Source of the DNA: Clostridia bacterium
GTDB lineage: Bacteria; Bacillota; Clostridia; Christensenellales; Aristaeellaceae
DNA: 46,673 nucleotides
Direction: 5' to 3'
NCBI GenBank assembly: GCA_017473345.1
Contig: JAFULL010000033.1
Span: 1-46,673, forward strand
In this document: piece by piece, positions 32,008-38,466 of the stretch
Numbering within the stretch: position 1 is the stretch's first letter
Layout of the letters: every line of letters begins with the position of its first letter
Notes under the pieces: generated by a model
Databases searched by the model: none
Told to the model about the DNA's origin: nothing
The model's input: only the letters and a program-made list of their open reading frames with translations
Made by a program: the position numbers and the translations under genes

Positions 32008-32098
32008 GGAGAGTTGGCTGAGTGGTCGAAGGCGCACGACTGGAAATCGTGTTTACGTGGTAAGCGTAACTAGGGTTCAAATCCCTAACTCTCCGCCA
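32008..32098 (+). tRNA. tRNA-Ser (anticodon GGA)
   Basis: Acceptor GGAGAGT pairs with ACTCTCC; discriminator G and encoded CCA follow (CCA at 32096-32098). The anticodon stem-loop is CACGA-CTGGAAA-TCGTG with anticodon GGA, reading UCC and UCU. A long class II variable arm (TTTACGTGGTAAGCGTAA) and T-arm TTCAAAT are intact. Its 3' part from the anticodon stem to CCA (32035-32098) is the attL of the integrative element to the right. Confidence 0.95.
32035..32098 (+). repeat. attL: 3' part of tRNA-Ser, 64-bp direct repeat
   Basis: Identical to 35778-35841. It covers the anticodon stem-loop, variable arm, T-arm, acceptor and CCA. Confidence 0.92.
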
Positions 32099-32149
32099 GT
32101 TGTCATCGCGGTGTGCTGGAAATACTACCGCGAAAGACTCCGTAAAGGG

Positions 32150-32178
32150 GGAGCAGCTTGCAGGGCTGCTCCTCTTTT
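32150..32178 (+). terminator. Terminator after tRNA-Ser
   Basis: Stem GGAGCAGC / GCTGCTCC with a 7-base loop, then TCTTTT. A second short hairpin (TGCCTC-TAG-GAGGCA, 32181-32195) follows. Confidence 0.8.
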
Positions 32179-32199
32179 GTTGCCTCTAGGAGGCAGCAT

Positions 32200-32251
32200 A
32201 TCCCAATTTGTCCCACTTTGTCAATAGCGACCGGGACAATTTGGGATTTTT
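32200..32251 (+). repeat. 15-bp inverted repeat with T-run near the left end of the element
   Basis: ATCCCAATTTGTCCC (32200-32214) pairs with GGGACAATTTGGGAT (32233-32247), 14 of 15 positions, with an 18-base loop and a following TTTT. It works as a terminator on the plus strand and could also be a protein-binding site for the element's recombination. The rest of 32099-32415 holds a promoter (32276-32305) and no gene that I can see. Confidence 0.75.
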
Positions 32252-32275
32252 ATTTTGCCAAGCGTGCGCGCTACA

Positions 32276-32305
32276 TGGTCAAATGGTACACTTTTGTGGT
32301 ATAAT
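32276..32305 (+). promoter_or_regulatory. Promoter of the element's first HTH gene
   Basis: TGGTCA (32276-32281), an 18-bp spacer and a perfect TATAAT (32300-32305), about 110 bases before the GTG start at 32416. The leader between them carries CTTGTTTTGCAAG, a small hairpin. Confidence 0.5.
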
Positions 32306-32415
32306 TGAAGTGACGGAAAGCCTTGTTTTGCAAGGGTTTGCCGTGCACGGTGTAGGTCTTGGAGGGCGAACAGGGCTTCCGTCTATGGTACACATTTCAG
32401 CCCGGAGGAAAAAAA

Positions 32416-32790
32416 GTGCGTAAGACATCCCCACCGACCACCTATGATTCACTCTTCCCTTCAGATCCACGATCACCGTATCAACTGCCCTACCAGAAAA
32501 AGCGGATGCTTCAGGAGTATTGGCCTGTTCGTTATGCCGCTCGTCGATGGGGTTGCACGTACAGAGCTGCTCGGCTGTACATCCTCAGACACCCAGGCAT
32601 TGGAGTGCTGATCAGGATCCAGGCGAGAACTGCACCTAAACCCAGATGGATTATCGCAGTAAAGGCAGGTACGATAAAGGTACCTGCCATGAAGGGTAAT
32701 CCTGATTTGCTAGATCCACACTGGCAACGTCGATATGCCATTGAACGATGGCGGAGGAAGAGGCAGCAAGACAGAAGTCCGGTCGAATGA
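32416..32790 (+). CDS. Small HTH DNA-binding protein of the integrative element (paralogue of 33621-34190)
   Basis: I do not recognise a named family. The 124-residue basic protein has a likely helix-turn-helix (RYAARRWGCTYRAARLYI) and a C-terminal motif VKAGTIKVPAMKGNPDLLDP. The same architecture occurs in the minus-strand gene at 33621-34190: YQLP, then R-x-A-A-x-x-W-G-x-[TS]-x-R-x-A-R-x-Y, then AGT and GNP; 15 of 35 residues around the helix region are identical. The start is GTG at 32416 with GGAGG and a run of seven A's before it; an open frame continues upstream to a TTG but lies before this site. A role as repressor, excisionase or replication control is likely but not shown. Confidence 0.75.
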   Translation: MRKTSPPTTYDSLFPSDPRSPYQLPYQKKRMLQEYWPVRYAARRWGCTYRAARLYILRHPGIGVLIRIQARTAPKPRWIIAVKAGTIKVPAMKGNPDLLDPHWQRRYAIERWRRKRQQDRSPVE

Positions 32791-33007
32791 CCGGGCTTTT
32801 CTGATTTGCTCACAGAAGCTGTTTTAAGGCGCTTTGATGGGGTAGAGGTGACCAGATACTCACATGTACCGTCTGAAGTGCCCCTAGCGGCGGGATTTCA
32901 GGCCGTTACGATGGGGAACGGCCCACCCACTCAGTTGTCTTGGCGTCGCACAGCCCCTCAAACTACCGTCCAGGCATTTCTTGTTCCCTTCGCTCCGGTG
33001 CCAGCGC

Positions 33008-33075
33008 TTTCGCTAAAGGTAAGGCTTTAGCGAAAAGTTTTTCAAACTATTTCGCTAAAGTCCACCTTTAGCGAA
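33008..33075. repeat. Tandem array of palindromes (TTTCGCTAAAG / CTTTAGCGAAA)
   Basis: Two hairpins with the same arms, TTTCGCTAAAG-6-CTTTAGCGAAA (33008-33035) and TTTCGCTAAAG-5-CTTTAGCGAA (33050-33075), are separated by a third small palindrome AGTTT-TTC-AAACT (33036-33048). They lie between convergent transcripts (genes at 32416 and 33621), so they may be terminators, but lacking T-runs they also fit iteron-like or operator sites. 32791-33007 holds nothing I can name. Confidence 0.75.
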
Positions 33076-33241
33076 TAGTTTTCGGGGCTGGCTCCTTCAG
33101 CTGCTCCGTCTTGCCCACCCATCCAATGTCGGCTTTGCTGCCATGGTCCAGGGTTTCTGGGTTGGCTGGTCGCTGCTGCCATGGCGTGTGCTCGTCGGGG
33201 GCGCAGCACTTGTGCCAGCGCCCTTCGCGCGCCCCTCACAC

Positions 33242-33603
33242 GGGCCGCTTCGGGCCCTTGGCACGCGCTGTGCCTCCCTCCTCCAGCAGGTGCCGGTCGC
33301 CACTGCTGCAGCTGGTCGTGCCCACCCACCAGCAGTTGCATGCCGTCGGCGGCGCCGCACTGCATGCGCGCCCCTGCCGTCGGCGTCGCCCTGTGCGCTG
33401 TGCGCGCGGCGCCACCTTGCCTGTGCTGCCCACCCTGCAGGTTGGGGGTTCGCCCGACTGCGGTCGGGCGGGACGCGTTGCGTCAAATGCAGCGAAGGGA
33501 TGCAGTCCATGCTGCATCCCTTGCTCAGCTGTTTGGTTGTGGGCTGGTTTCGTCCGGCTGCGGCCGGCCGGCACCCGTGCTGCGTCCGCACCGGCTGTGC
33601 CGG
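33242..33603. repeat. GC-rich hairpin cluster in a non-coding stretch
   Basis: At least six perfect hairpins: GGGCC/GGCCC (33242-33257), CGCCCGAC-TGCG-GTCGGGCG (33451-33470), an 11-bp stem AAGGGATGCAG/CTGCATCCCTT (33495-33522), CCGGC-TGCG-GCCGG (33554-33567), GTGC/GCAC (33577-33591) and CCGGC-TGT-GCCGG (33591-33603). Two share the TGCG loop and differ by an A-T to G-C pair change that keeps pairing. The region is about 65-70% GC, and I find no convincing coding signal in any frame although several frames are open. 33076-33241 holds no other feature. Confidence 0.65.
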
Positions 33604-33620
33604 CACGGTCTCACCACGGG

Positions 33621-34190
33621 TTACTCTTCATCTCTTGGCCAGGGCACGCGCGGGTCGCGCCTGGCTTTTCGCTCCATGCGCTTGCGCACACTCAGATCAG
33701 GGTACACCAGCTGTGGTGGCAGGGGCTTGCCCTCGGCGTCTGTTGGCCAGCCCGCGCGGGCCTGTTCTGGGTATGGCTGCCACTCCTCAGCAGCTGCAGG
33801 CATGCCTATTGGCGGCAGGGCACTTACTGCCTCCGCAATGGCTTCTTCGTTGGCTGCTGCCTTGATGGCGTCGCGCTGCGCTTTGGTCATGTGCCCCTGC
33901 CAGCGCTTACCGGCCAGTGCTTTTTGGTAATCGCTGCTGCAGAAATTCGGGTTGCCTGCAGGCGGCATGTCCGGTGCGGCAGTCCCTGCAGGCAGCATGC
34001 GTCGCACAGTTACCTTGTCGGTGCGCACATTGATCGTGGCAATCGGCCATGTATACATCTGGCTAAAGTACCGGCGTGCTGTGCGTACACTCACGCCCCA
34101 GACGTCAGCAGCCTGCCTGGGCGTCATCCATTCAGCCCGCAGCCGCTCAGCTTCATGGGGTAGCTGGTACTGCTCATACGCTTCGACCAT
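33621..34190 (-). CDS. HTH DNA-binding protein of the integrative element (paralogue of 32416-32790)
   Basis: This 189-residue protein is last in a minus-strand operon. It has a MerR/excisionase-like helix-turn-helix (MTPRQAADVWGVSVRTARRY, residues 22-41), then VRTDKVTVRRMLPAGTAAPD and the GNPNF motif, and a long charged C-terminus (AQRDAIKAAANEEAIAEAV; RKRMERKARRDPRVPWPRDEE split here after 33621). It shares the YQLP, A-A-x-x-W-G and GNP features with the 124-residue protein at the other end of the element, but its C-terminal half (about residues 85-189) is absent there. Its start lies 16 bases inside the upstream gene. Function unknown; DNA binding is likely. Confidence 0.78.
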   Translation of the reverse strand: MVEAYEQYQLPHEAERLRAEWMTPRQAADVWGVSVRTARRYFSQMYTWPIATINVRTDKVTVRRMLPAGTAAPDMPPAGNPNFCSSDYQKALAGKRWQGHMTKAQRDAIKAAANEEAIAEAVSALPPIGMPAAAEEWQPYPEQARAGWPTDAEGKPLPPQLVYPDLSVRKRMERKARRDPRVPWPRDEE

Positions 34191-34389
34191 TGCGTGCCTC
34201 CAGTTTTGTTCTCAGCTCTTCGTTTTCGCCCCGCAGGTCCCGCAGCCGGTGCAGGGCTCTTTCAAGCAGGCAGCTCATTTCGTACACCTCGACAGCGTTC
34301 ATATGCGTGCCGTTCAGCGGATGGCGCTGCAGCAGCCGATCGGCCTCCCGTTCCAGTTCTTCCTCAACCGTGATGTCCAAGGGTCTCAT
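34174..34389 (-). CDS. Small coiled-coil protein of the integrative element
   Basis: This 71-residue acidic-basic protein has leucine heptads (ERALHRLRDLRGENEELRTK) that predict a coiled coil; no family is recognised. It overlaps both neighbours: its start is within the DnaD-like gene (stop at 34364) and its stop at 34174 lies inside the next gene, so the three are translationally coupled. The ATG at 34389 is used; an in-frame ATG at 34407 would extend it by six residues. Confidence 0.65.
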   Translation of the reverse strand: MRPLDITVEEELEREADRLLQRHPLNGTHMNAVEVYEMSCLLERALHRLRDLRGENEELRTKLEARNGRSV

Positions 34390-34780
34390 AGAATTCCACC
34401 TCGTCATTGATGCCGCGCTGATAGTTGTTCAGGATCACGTACCGGGCATATGCCCAACTGGGCCGCGGGGCTGCTGCCGTGTAGTCCAGCACGGCCATTA
34501 TCAGCCCGCTGCATATTCCCCGGTCCATCATACTGTGTATCTCACGTTCGACCACCTTCGGCAGCGGGCGTCCTATGGCATCTTCGTATGCCTGGGCAAA
34601 GTCACCATGACAGACCTGTTGTATTTGCTGCTCGCTGGCCCGCTCCATGTGGTAGTCGAGCGCCCTCACGCGCGTACGCGCGCGCGCGGGATTATTATTA
34701 TTATAATAATTATTATTAGTATGCTGTGATTGTGATTGTGATCTTTCTCTTTCCTGGATACTAGATGCTGTAGTTGTCAT
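34364..34780 (-). CDS. DnaD-like domain protein of the integrative element
   Basis: A 138-residue protein. The C-terminal half (about 70-130) fits a DnaD domain, the module of Gram-positive primosome and phage replication proteins that binds DNA: YEDAIGRPLPKVVEREIHSM, then ALDYTAAAPRPSW-like helices and ARYVILNNYQRGIN, the Y-x-x-x-I-L-x-x-W/Y-x-x-x-G-I pattern. The N-terminus is low complexity: SQSQSQHTNNNYYNNNN followed by Arg-rich RARTRVR, encoded by an A/T-only tract and a CG-alternating tract. A replication function for the element is likely. The start codon has GGAG 11 bases upstream, in the divergent region shared with the integrase. Confidence 0.72.
   Translation of the reverse strand: MTTTASSIQERERSQSQSQHTNNNYYNNNNPARARTRVRALDYHMERASEQQIQQVCHGDFAQAYEDAIGRPLPKVVEREIHSMMDRGICSGLIMAVLDYTAAAPRPSWAYARYVILNNYQRGINDEVEFYETLGHHG
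34667..34718. other. CG-alternating tract next to a 28-nt A/T-only tract inside the DnaD-like gene
   Basis: 34667-34688 is an unbroken purine-pyrimidine alternation (mostly CG steps), directly followed by GG and then 34691-34718, 28 bases of A and T only. Together they have the look of a DNA-unwinding element next to a Z-DNA-prone tract. Confidence 0.6.
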
Positions 34781-34827
34781 TTTGTCATCGACTCCGTTAT
34801 AATACCATCAGGGGTTCCCCTTGATGG
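34774..34827 (+). promoter_or_regulatory. Integrase promoter and palindromic operator/leader hairpin
   Basis: TTGTCA (34774-34779), an 18-bp spacer, TATAAT (34798-34803), then a 10-bp hairpin CCATCAGGGG/CCCCTTGATGG (34805-34827) whose end touches the ribosome site GGGAGG (34826-34831). It could act as an operator or hide the ribosome site. Confidence 0.65.
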
Positions 34828-34839
34828 GAGGCGTACAAA

Positions 34840-35739
34840 ATGCTTACGGGTGAATATCTGAATCAGTGGCTTGATACCTTTGTCCGTCCATTTCGGGCAG
34901 CAAACACAGCGGCATGCTACCGCCGTGCCATTGCAGCCCTGCCGCCTTCCGTCTGCGGCTGCGAACTGCAGCAGCTCAACGCGCTGCACATTCAGGCCGC
35001 GCTGAACCAACAGGCCGTCAAGCATCCGCGTGCGGCGCAGCTTACGTTTGCCATGCTCCACGCCGCTCTGACCAAGGCCGAGTGTATGCGTCTGGTCGAC
35101 CGTTCGCCGATGATCGGCTGCGTGAAGCCTCTGCACCAGTCTGCCCGGGCCGATGTGCTCAGCGTTTCGCAGCTGTCCGCGTACCTGACTGCCGCCCGAT
35201 CACAACGGGGGTTCGTGCTGCTGCTGCTCATGGCCACCTGCGGCCTGCGCCGTTCAGAGGCGCTCGGCCTGCAGTGGCGCGACATCGATCTGACCGGGGG
35301 ATGGCTCACCGTTTCCCGCCAGCGCATCCGGATCAATCACGGGTACCAGGCGGCTCCGCTCAAGAGTCGCAGCGCTCAACGTGTGCTGCCGCTGCCGCCG
35401 CCATTGGTGGCCGAGTTGGCTGCTCACCGCGCCGATCAGCGCGAACGTGCTTTCGTCGGCTGGGTCTGTGACATGACGCCGGAGGCCCTGCGCAAGTCTC
35501 ACCGCGCAGCACTCGCGGCAGCGGGTTTGCCTCTGTCCGTCACGCTGCATGGCCTGCGGCACTCGATGGCCACGGCTGCTGCTGCTCAGGGTACGCCCAT
35601 GAAGATCCTGCAGGGGATCCTGGGCCACTCCAAATATCAGCTGACCGCCGACCTGTATGCTGCCCACCTTTCCGCCGATAGTTTCGTGCCATATGTCGCG
35701 CAGCTGACGAATGTGCTGGGTTGGTATCAATCTGTCTAG
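34840..35739 (+). CDS. int: Tyrosine recombinase (integrase) of the tRNA-Ser element
   Basis: This 299-residue recombinase inserts and excises the element by strand exchange at the tRNA repeat. All catalytic residues are visible: R137 in CGLRRSEALGLQW, K175 in APLKSRSAQR, H237-x-x-R240 in TLHGLRHSMATAAA, H263 in LGHS and the nucleophile Y273 in ADLYAAHL. An N-terminal SAM-like core-binding domain (1-95) is short, and no zinc or arm-binding N-terminal domain is evident. GGGAGG lies 8 bases before the ATG. The gene points toward attR, 38 bases away, as is usual. It appears intact and could be active. Confidence 0.93.
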   Translation: MLTGEYLNQWLDTFVRPFRAANTAACYRRAIAALPPSVCGCELQQLNALHIQAALNQQAVKHPRAAQLTFAMLHAALTKAECMRLVDRSPMIGCVKPLHQSARADVLSVSQLSAYLTAARSQRGFVLLLLMATCGLRRSEALGLQWRDIDLTGGWLTVSRQRIRINHGYQAAPLKSRSAQRVLPLPPPLVAELAAHRADQRERAFVGWVCDMTPEALRKSHRAALAAAGLPLSVTLHGLRHSMATAAAAQGTPMKILQGILGHSKYQLTADLYAAHLSADSFVPYVAQLTNVLGWYQSV

Positions 35740-35777
35740 ATTCATTGTGGCGCAAGGGTTTGAGTGATTCGAAGCCC

Positions 35778-35841
35778 CACGACTGGAAATCGTGTTTACG
35801 TGGTAAGCGTAACTAGGGTTCAAATCCCTAACTCTCCGCCA
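35778..35841 (+). repeat. attR: second copy of the 64-bp tRNA-Ser 3' part
   Basis: Identical to 32035-32098. The flank just to the left (35761-35775) still resembles the tRNA D-arm sequence (GAGTGATTCGAAG versus GAGTGGTCGAAGG), so it might descend from a second tRNA-Ser copy rather than a plain attP. Confidence 0.9.
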
Positions 35842-36113
35842 TTTAAGAACACCTTGAGAAATCAAGGTGTTCTTCTTTTTTATCCCAAAGGCGAATGGAC
35901 GAAATACGACACTCTACGCTTGAAATGATGTTTTTCTGCACAAAAACTGCACAAAACGGATTTCTGAGGAGCCTTCAAACGCTTATGTTATAAACGTTTG
36001 CGGGCTTTTCCTGTGTGCACGGAATCTACACAAAACCGTCTGAAAACAGGTTCTGAAGCCTGTTCCCGGTTTCGATGATTTTGTCGTTTTGCTTGTGTAC
36101 ATAACGATTCATC
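35842..36113. repeat. 272-bp direct repeat, copy 1 (other copy at 38195-38466)
   Basis: This stretch aligns end to end with 38195-38466 at the same length, without net gaps, with clear similarity throughout and a nearly identical last ~70 bases. It contains a hairpin terminator (35848-35880 area, GAACACCTTGAGAAATCAAGGTGTTC region), a second imperfect hairpin (around 35973-36001) and the 3' end of an integrase on the minus strand. It begins exactly where the tRNA-Ser repeat ends. Confidence 0.8.
36026..36112 (-). pseudogene. Tyrosine integrase C-terminal remnant, copy 1
   Basis: The minus strand reads MNRYVHKQNDKIIETGNRL followed by QNLFSDGFV and a stop. This matches the C-terminal end of many clostridial tyrosine integrases (x-x-T-M-x-R-Y-V-H). 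Only the last 28 residues remain, including the tyrosine of RYVH, the likely nucleophile. It is a scar of an earlier integration next to the tRNA-Ser repeat. Confidence 0.65.
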
Positions 36114-38194: not shown

Positions 38195-38466
38195 TCTAGA
38201 AAGTCTTGAGAAATCAAGACTTTCTTCTTTTTTGTCCGGAAAGCGGGATGTGGGAATACGACACTCATACGCTTGAAATGGTGTTTTTCTGCACGAAAAC
38301 TGCACAAAATGGATTTTTAAAGAGCCTTCAAATGCTTATGCTATAAGCGTTTGCGGGATTTTCCTGCGTGCGCGGAATCTGCACAAAACCGTCTGAAAAC
38401 AGGTTTTGGAGTCTGCTTCCGGTTTCGATGATTTTGTCGTTTTGCTTGTGTACATAACGATTCATC
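38195..38466. repeat. 272-bp direct repeat, copy 2 (other copy at 35842-36113)
   Basis: It aligns with copy 1 over its whole length, including the first hairpin (AAGTCTTGAGAAATCAAGACTT) whose stem bases have changed on both sides to keep pairing, and the integrase end. It begins directly after the tRNA-like sequence. Confidence 0.8.

Follow-up and report, generated by a model that had tools for sequence, protein, structure and literature searches.

A family of minimal integrative elements in tRNA genes that pair a tyrosine integrase with a DnaD-like protein

In the passages that describe them, PICMIs are minimal integrative elements with an integrase, a regulator, one replication protein and no capsid genes; they lie beside fis in Vibrionaceae, rely on AlpA together with a primase, and are able to defend their host against phages (PMC10803314). 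The same passages report packaging as a concatemer (8 copies of ~6 kb each in ~49 kb) and call PICMI115 (~6 kb) the smallest satellite with characterised activity (PMC10803314). An even smaller thaumarchaeal cryptic element, the 2.6-kb NitUzo-E2, encodes an integrase, a winged helix-turn-helix (HTH) protein and two further small proteins; it is archaeal and reported as a single smallest example, and no DnaD-like protein is mentioned in that part of the source (PMC6563490). Islands in tmRNA genes likewise have a tRNA-type site, an integrase, direct repeats and no transfer genes, and a jumbo phage moved one of them; their cargo includes putative phage defence systems, again with no DnaD-like protein mentioned in the abstract (PMC12595487). 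Here we describe a 3743-bp element (start-to-start) on contig JAFULL010000033.1 of a Clostridia bacterium; the window denotes the whole 46,673-nucleotide stretch analysed. Sequence comparison places the element in a new family of minimal integrative elements that target tRNA genes and occur mainly in a single bacterial family. We found no description of a minimal integrase/DnaD-like family in open-licence papers. NitUzo-E2 is a conceptual precedent. The family differs from PICMIs in its sites (tRNA-Ser or tRNA-Lys genes), its DnaD C-terminal domain, its size (2.1-4.5 kb) and the lack of a known helper.

A tRNA-bracketed element and its relatives

The sequence-only reading held that a perfect 64-bp repeat of the tRNA-Ser 3′ part brackets the element. 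A repeat search of the window confirmed exact direct copies at 32035-32098 (attL core, + strand) and 35778-35841 (attR core, + strand), the copies being 96% identical (three mismatches) across 32026-32101 and 35769-35844. The attL copy ends an intact tRNA-Ser(GGA) gene (32008-32098, + strand; ARAGORN; Rfam tRNA, 57.1 bits) whose 3′ part comes from the element, and the attR copy is the displaced 3′ fragment of the target gene. Insertion restores the tRNA gene, and the integrase gene adjoins attR. ARAGORN also accepts a chimeric tRNA copy at 35754-35837, which we read as the displaced fragment because the match covers tRNA positions 12-91 only, at 95%.

The integrase gene (34840-35739, + strand) is intact, matches Pfam Phage_integrase at 1.2e-16 and stops 38 bp short of attR. 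Six residues that we take to be catalytic (R137, K175, H237, R240, H263 and Y273) are invariant across six aligned integrases, in keeping with the earlier claim of an intact tyrosine recombinase. Diverging from it is an operon of three overlapping genes on the - strand. The first, DnaD138 (34364-34780), has a low-complexity N terminus and a DnaD C-terminal (DnaB_2) domain (Pfam, 5.7e-5, above the curated cut-off). The second, cc77 (34174-34407), encodes a small coiled-coil-like protein and overlaps both neighbours. The third, HTH189 (33621-34190), weakly resembles a phage excisionase/regulator family (phrog_66, 3.8e-4) and also gave the single, weak HTH match of the window proteins in PADLOC (0.041); it is a candidate excisionase, regulator or initiator. 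On the tRNA side, on the integrase strand, lies p143 (32416-32790), a small HTH protein without a Pfam or PHROG match; its longest open reading frame (ORF) is 32359-32790, and the likely start is the GTG at 32416, which has a ribosome-binding site. HTH189 and p143 form one small HTH family, also present in the related loci L072, L073, L074, L075 and L076. The predicted set of DnaD-like, coiled-coil and two related HTH genes beside the integrase therefore stood.

The element is not a one-off. Among 250 genomes of the host family, 30 match the integrase at E≤1e-20, and an alignment of DnaD-like proteins finds 22 places at E≤1e-15 and a further 15 that match more weakly, at 3.9e-9 to 5.5e-5. Of the 22 strong matches, 20 divergently adjoin an integrase match (20 loci, 19 genomes, 11 genera); of the other two, the match at G016:C40 is on a contig of 3072 bp and that at G016:C11 close to the end of its contig. 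Fifteen of the 20 loci, in 8 genera, lie between tRNA repeats, and the other five are cut off by a contig end on the tRNA side, with a tRNA 3′ fragment present past the integrase. A 16th bracketed element with the integrase/DnaD-like core (2384 bp) was found outside the host family, in family f23 of the same order. All 16 are in tRNA-Ser(GGA) or tRNA-Lys genes and measure 2092, 2384, 2408, 2432, 2824, 3005, 3007, 3059, 3126, 3274, 3287, 3731, 3743 (window), 3872, 3897 and 4459 bp (2092-4459 bp, median 3.1 kb). The 14 further host-family brackets contain exact runs of 49-68 bp in 12 cases and interrupted ones in L076 and L087. Because such tRNA-derived brackets recur at these 14 loci, a chance origin of the window bracket is excluded. 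The full gene set, order and tRNA-Ser site of the window element are found again in G233 (L072), a recurrence for which the sequence-only reading had proposed to look. The integrase and the DnaD-like protein are all that the whole family shares; in many members the other genes are replaced. The smallest member, L075 (2092 bp), encodes these two and one HTH protein of the same family as p143 and HTH189, in three likely genes. Gene calls in relatives come from ORF and ribosome-binding-site scans, and many of the genomes sampled are incomplete, the window's own standing at 65%.

The integrases themselves are well preserved. The 25 read from relatives, of which 20 have the DnaD-like gene close by and 5 do not, all form open frames; a tRNA 3′ fragment follows within ~100 bp in 23 of them. 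Differences at the three codon positions (0.33/0.24/0.50 between the window and G233, 0.25/0.19/0.55 between L074 and L075) are a signal of selection on the integrase. A contrast set of 54 loci with weaker integrase relatives (1 from the window's own genome, 26 from named genomes, 9 from host-family genomes, 14 viral contigs and 4 phage records) contained the integrase in 53 and a DnaD-like match in none of the stretches inspected, and no DnaD-like match was found in the small phage records with related integrases (L092-L095). With more flank, one contrast locus (G150:C12, L136) revealed a DnaD-like match 2.1 kb from its integrase. There (L136, 1183-7150), a 23-bp repeat at a tRNA-Trp gene encloses 5.9 kb, in which a distant integrase and a short DnaD-like match (64.7% identity) are found; L136 could be a larger element related to the others. 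The size range given above excludes integrase loci that have no DnaD-like match close by (L090, L091, L136-L138 and the weaker L049-L057).

Beyond the host family, the DnaD-like profile matched 8 of 396 genomes of the order at 1e-8: six from the host family, G335 (counted above) and G321, which has no integrase near the match and was not counted as a member. In the class, 5 of 391 genomes matched at 1e-10, the window's own and four from family f48, with no tRNA or tRNA repeat in the stretches inspected at these five places. One of these places outside the host family, L317 (8209-10271), has a DnaD-like match and, ~1 kb away in divergent orientation near a contig end, a distant integrase (24%); it may be a far relative.

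Empty sites were sought in 17 genomes of the genus, 15 of which match the tRNA at E≤1e-10 and two of which do not. A displaced second copy is found in three of the 17 (G000, G013 and G233), which carry the element. Eleven others have one uninterrupted tRNA-Ser(GGA) gene, no displaced fragment and a terminator-like hairpin (seen by eye) directly behind it, as expected of vacant sites. One of these eleven, G171, additionally gave an 81% match, which we read as a different isoacceptor; G200, outside the eleven, gave a single match, read in the same way. Another of the eleven, G126, is 72% identical to the window over a 1.6-kb stretch of upstream flank, although its tRNA is separated from the nearest shared gene by 1.9 kb instead of 0.2 kb. 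A similar hairpin directly past the attR core of the window (35846-35881, + strand, by eye) is arranged as at the empty sites, and we infer that it is the original tRNA terminator from before insertion. Another, supplied by the element, stands behind the restored tRNA (32148-32183, + strand, by eye), with similar ones at the corresponding place in the G233 and G013 elements.

A restored tRNA, a displaced fragment, an integrase and an empty site in relatives, the general marks of integrative elements in tRNA genes, are thus all present. In an integrase tree of 24 rows, the six tRNA-Lys rows group together (97/93), so that the target switched once, from Ser to Lys, and a single clade for the four rows of genus g6 is rejected (p-AU, approximately unbiased test, 0.0045). 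G005 contains two elements, and G016 one element and two DnaD-like contigs. We regard it as very probable that these loci form one family that moves by integration, which bears out the proposal of the sequence-only reading that the element represents an unnamed family of minimal integrative elements.

A sister integrase clade (L091 and L138) occupies tRNA-Ser(GGA) without a DnaD-like gene. L091 spans 4765 bp and encodes, beside the integrase, a 159-amino-acid protein that by eye resembles a winged-helix replication protein, possibly a swap of the replication module.

The DnaD-like protein and a candidate replication site

No primase was recognised among the window proteins (Pfam, PHROGs), and the DnaD-like protein stands in its place. 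Eleven of 18 members of this protein family match DnaB_2 at E≤0.01, and the family profile matches the DnaD-like structure PDB 2zc2 (1.4e-7) and DnaD (8ojj, 0.0053). The DnaB_2/DnaD C-terminal domain is the only one recognised in DnaD138. In Staphylococcus DnaD, according to the part of the study concerned, the C terminus is required for binding single-stranded DNA and PriA, and a DNA-binding motif YxxxIxxxW is named (PMC4909229). All 18 members share the tyrosine aligned with this motif; L079, L084 and L085 show it in full, and DnaD138 does not. DnaD138, which has only the domain that in DnaD binds single-stranded DNA and PriA, is a candidate helicase loader, and replication through the DnaD-like protein is probable. 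A DnaD-related fold also serves mobile-element replication, together with origin repeats, in PLE RepA and RepA_N plasmid initiators, at least in the excerpts that treat them; RepA_N proteins have a DNA-binding DnaD-like N-terminal domain (PMC7145576, PMC5703833), whereas in DnaD138 the C-terminal DnaD domain alone is recognised.

A cis-acting partner for such a protein may lie in the ~0.8 kb between p143 and HTH189, which is GC-rich and apparently noncoding. Within it, a conserved block (32922-33120) is 75% identical to the element of G233, the nearest relative, over 207 aligned columns, compared with 67% for the integrase gene, making it a candidate origin or other cis site. In 17 genomes of the genus, matches to the noncoding stretch (32791-33620) are confined to these two elements and one 45-bp match in G013, which falls outside the block. 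The block contains two dyads with the same half-sites (TTCGCTAAAG / CTTTAGCGAA), at 33009-33034 and 33051-33075. We scanned 25 sequences (21 integrase/DnaD loci plus L131, L132, L091 and L138) for these half-sites and found dyads in nine, two in each and in all nine on the tRNA side of the DnaD-like gene; dinucleotide shuffles (20 per sequence) gave a mean of 0-0.1 dyads per shuffle. The arms covary between members (CTAAAG/CTTTAG, CAAAAG/CTTTTG, CAAAAC/GTTTTG), consistent with a hairpin or a symmetric protein site. That only 9 of the 25 sequences have the pair counts against the reading favoured below. Its presence requires six changes on the integrase tree, so that the pair was gained, lost or exchanged. 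A stricter search for two similar inverted repeats recovered a pair in only five of the nine dyad members, as well as weak pairs of different sequence in L077 and L089.

A single dyad had to be abandoned as a unique mark, the strict pattern occurring in 33 of 250 genomes, mostly without an element at the match. Because single dyads are found elsewhere in genomes, only the pair is informative: two strict matches within 200 bp occur in four genomes (G000, G005, G052 and G233), always inside elements. In IMG/VR, the exact pattern is found in 0 stretches and a degenerate one in 26, each with one site, which we read as unrelated. We favour replication over packaging or regulation as the putative role of the paired-dyad block.

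Two other candidates were rejected. Rfam matches at the dyads (two microRNA families and sucA) scored far under the gathering scores and were discarded, and an AT-rich unwinding site within the DnaD-like gene, striking in the window and G233, was dropped as a family feature, since only 2 of the 16 bracketed elements have their lowest-GC 40-bp window inside that gene. In genus g16, 12 genomes contain one dyad of the form TTCGCAAAAG...CTTTTGCG (e.g. G016:C20:2158-2179), probably a conserved terminator outside the elements.

Routes of spread

No transfer or capsid genes were recognised by Pfam and PHROGs in the five window proteins and ten small proteins of relatives, nor did the window proteins significantly match defence genes (PADLOC included) or, as a prophage would, tail or lysis genes (Pfam, PHROGs). 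The earlier claim of an element without transfer or capsid genes holds for the window proteins. A lack of packaging genes does not extend to all relatives, two of them having a gene like that of a terminase small subunit. In L082 this gene (phrog_641, 1.8e-5) fills the slot held by p143 in the window, and in L131 it lies on the tRNA side of the DnaD-like gene (phrog_2538, 5.1e-8). Some known satellites redirect packaging by encoding a terminase small subunit themselves. Of the 11 phage records that the L131 protein matches, eight are Streptococcus satellite phages (Javan), in which the matching protein is annotated as hypothetical or not at all. These satellites resemble the present elements in having an integrase at one end and an HTH gene; they differ in size (6.5-12.0 kb for the eight records) and gene content (14 and 19 annotated genes in the two records inspected, one with a DNA primase).

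The best reading, and a rather likely one, is that these are minimal hitch-hiking integrative elements, probably satellite-like, which would excise, replicate via the DnaD-like protein and depend on a helper to travel. The element would leave the chromosome as a circle through its integrase and an HTH protein, the latter acting as excisionase or regulator; the DnaD-like protein would load the helicase of the host at a noncoding site in cis (in the window member, the paired dyads) and so produce several copies; and these would exit passively by means of a helper, the likeliest being a phage that packages them in the manner of a satellite. Passive exit is proposed because the proteins scanned include no transfer or capsid gene, while two relatives have the terminase-like genes. 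Phage packaging is the leading route, to which we give an even chance. The element's own integrase and defined attachment site are those of a phage satellite, and it may work like a stripped-down one such as a PICMI, yet it is in tRNA-Ser(GGA) rather than at fis, has no recognised primase and has in HTH189 only a weak likeness to the excisionase family in place of AlpA. More tentatively, these could be the smallest known phage satellites, built from an integrase, a stand-alone DnaD C-terminal domain and one DNA-binding protein, with as few as three genes in 2.1 kb, the host helicase handed to an origin (in some members the paired dyads), packaging as concatemers by phages and, in some, a terminase redirected by the element's own small subunit.

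Several findings weigh against this picture. L131 is the 3072-bp contig, without integrase or bracket, and no terminase gene is recognisable among the window element's proteins (Pfam, PHROGs). Phage records contain no match to the L082 protein, DnaD138 or p143, and IMG/VR none to HTH189. Related IMG/VR integrases are at most 36% identical (14 loci; among the 80 of 301 matches listed), the tRNA is the one part of the element's DNA with a match in phage records (2% of the query), and neither IMG/VR nor the phage records show a packaged copy. Codon-position differences in cc77 (0.62/0.58/0.67) give no clear signal, its G233 counterpart (70 amino acids) being only 23% identical. The window's nearest integrases come from the same genus, so transfer may be mostly short-range. 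Finally, proteins in the corresponding slot of L084 and L164 match NikA-like ribbon-helix-helix (RHH) mobilisation proteins (4.1e-5 and 1.1e-4, below the Pfam cut-off), which points to conjugation.

The last finding belongs to the strongest rival, an integrative mobilizable element without its own relaxase, moved in trans through a noncoding oriT by a resident integrative and conjugative element or a conjugative plasmid. It fits the combination of no transfer genes with a long GC-rich noncoding region. RHH proteins cross-match widely, however, no relaxase or other mobilisation protein of the kind that defines integrative mobilizable elements was found among the window proteins (Pfam, PHROGs), and two relatives have terminase-like genes. 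A review does expect, in the section concerned, oriT-only elements among integrase-bearing elements without conjugation proteins (PMC5704250). Overall, we consider this route unlikely.

Less probable again, and rather improbable in itself, is a plasmid-like integrative replicon spread by transformation or general transduction without a dedicated helper. A gene set for integration, helicase loading (by likeness) and regulation would suit it, as would the failure to recognise a packaging gene in most members scanned. Yet integrases in plasmid records are at most 33.6% identical (among the 20 of 64 matches listed), phage records give no DNA match past the tRNA, and no extrachromosomal copy was found, plasmid records having been searched with the integrase only. 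The alternative offered by the sequence-only reading was a reduced remnant, here taken as what is left of a larger phage or a conjugative element after all but its integrase and ends decayed. It has in its favour the tiny size and the apparently loose constraint on cc77 and much of the GC-rich noncoding stretch. We reject it as very improbable, since 16 bracketed elements of 2.1-4.5 kb share one core across 8 host-family genera and another family, all 25 relatives' integrases are open (20 of them paired with the DnaD-like gene), the integrase pairs compared show a codon-position signal, and the 6.7-19.5 kb stretches inspected hold no larger bracketed element with this integrase clade, longer ones escaping such a search.

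If transfer of the hitch-hiking elements that we favour is real, a core of two to three genes at 2.1-4.5 kb would bring down the minimum so far known for such an element and offer a clean system for asking what a minimal element must encode, with a DnaD domain acting as a mobile element's own helicase loader. The Islander size filter is given as 2 kb in the relevant part of its description (PMC4383910); because the present elements are near the usual island size filters, similar families may be overlooked.

Minor observations around the element

The p143 leader (32314-32340) contains the motif GCAAGGGTTT with an inverted partner close by, as do the sequences beside attR (35745-35762) and beside attR in G233; these copies are possible arm-type integrase sites. 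Small cysteine-containing proteins of 75-81 amino acids (CAHCQRP..., CAVCGRV...) are encoded on three G016 contigs (L131, L086 and L132), the one in L086 having no Pfam or PHROG match. Just past attR, a ~268-bp intergenic sequence (35846-36113) is repeated downstream of the next gene (38198-38466), with 91% identity over 199 bp, 75% over 69 bp and compensating changes in a terminator-like stem; weaker copies are present on contigs C126 and C46 of the same genome.

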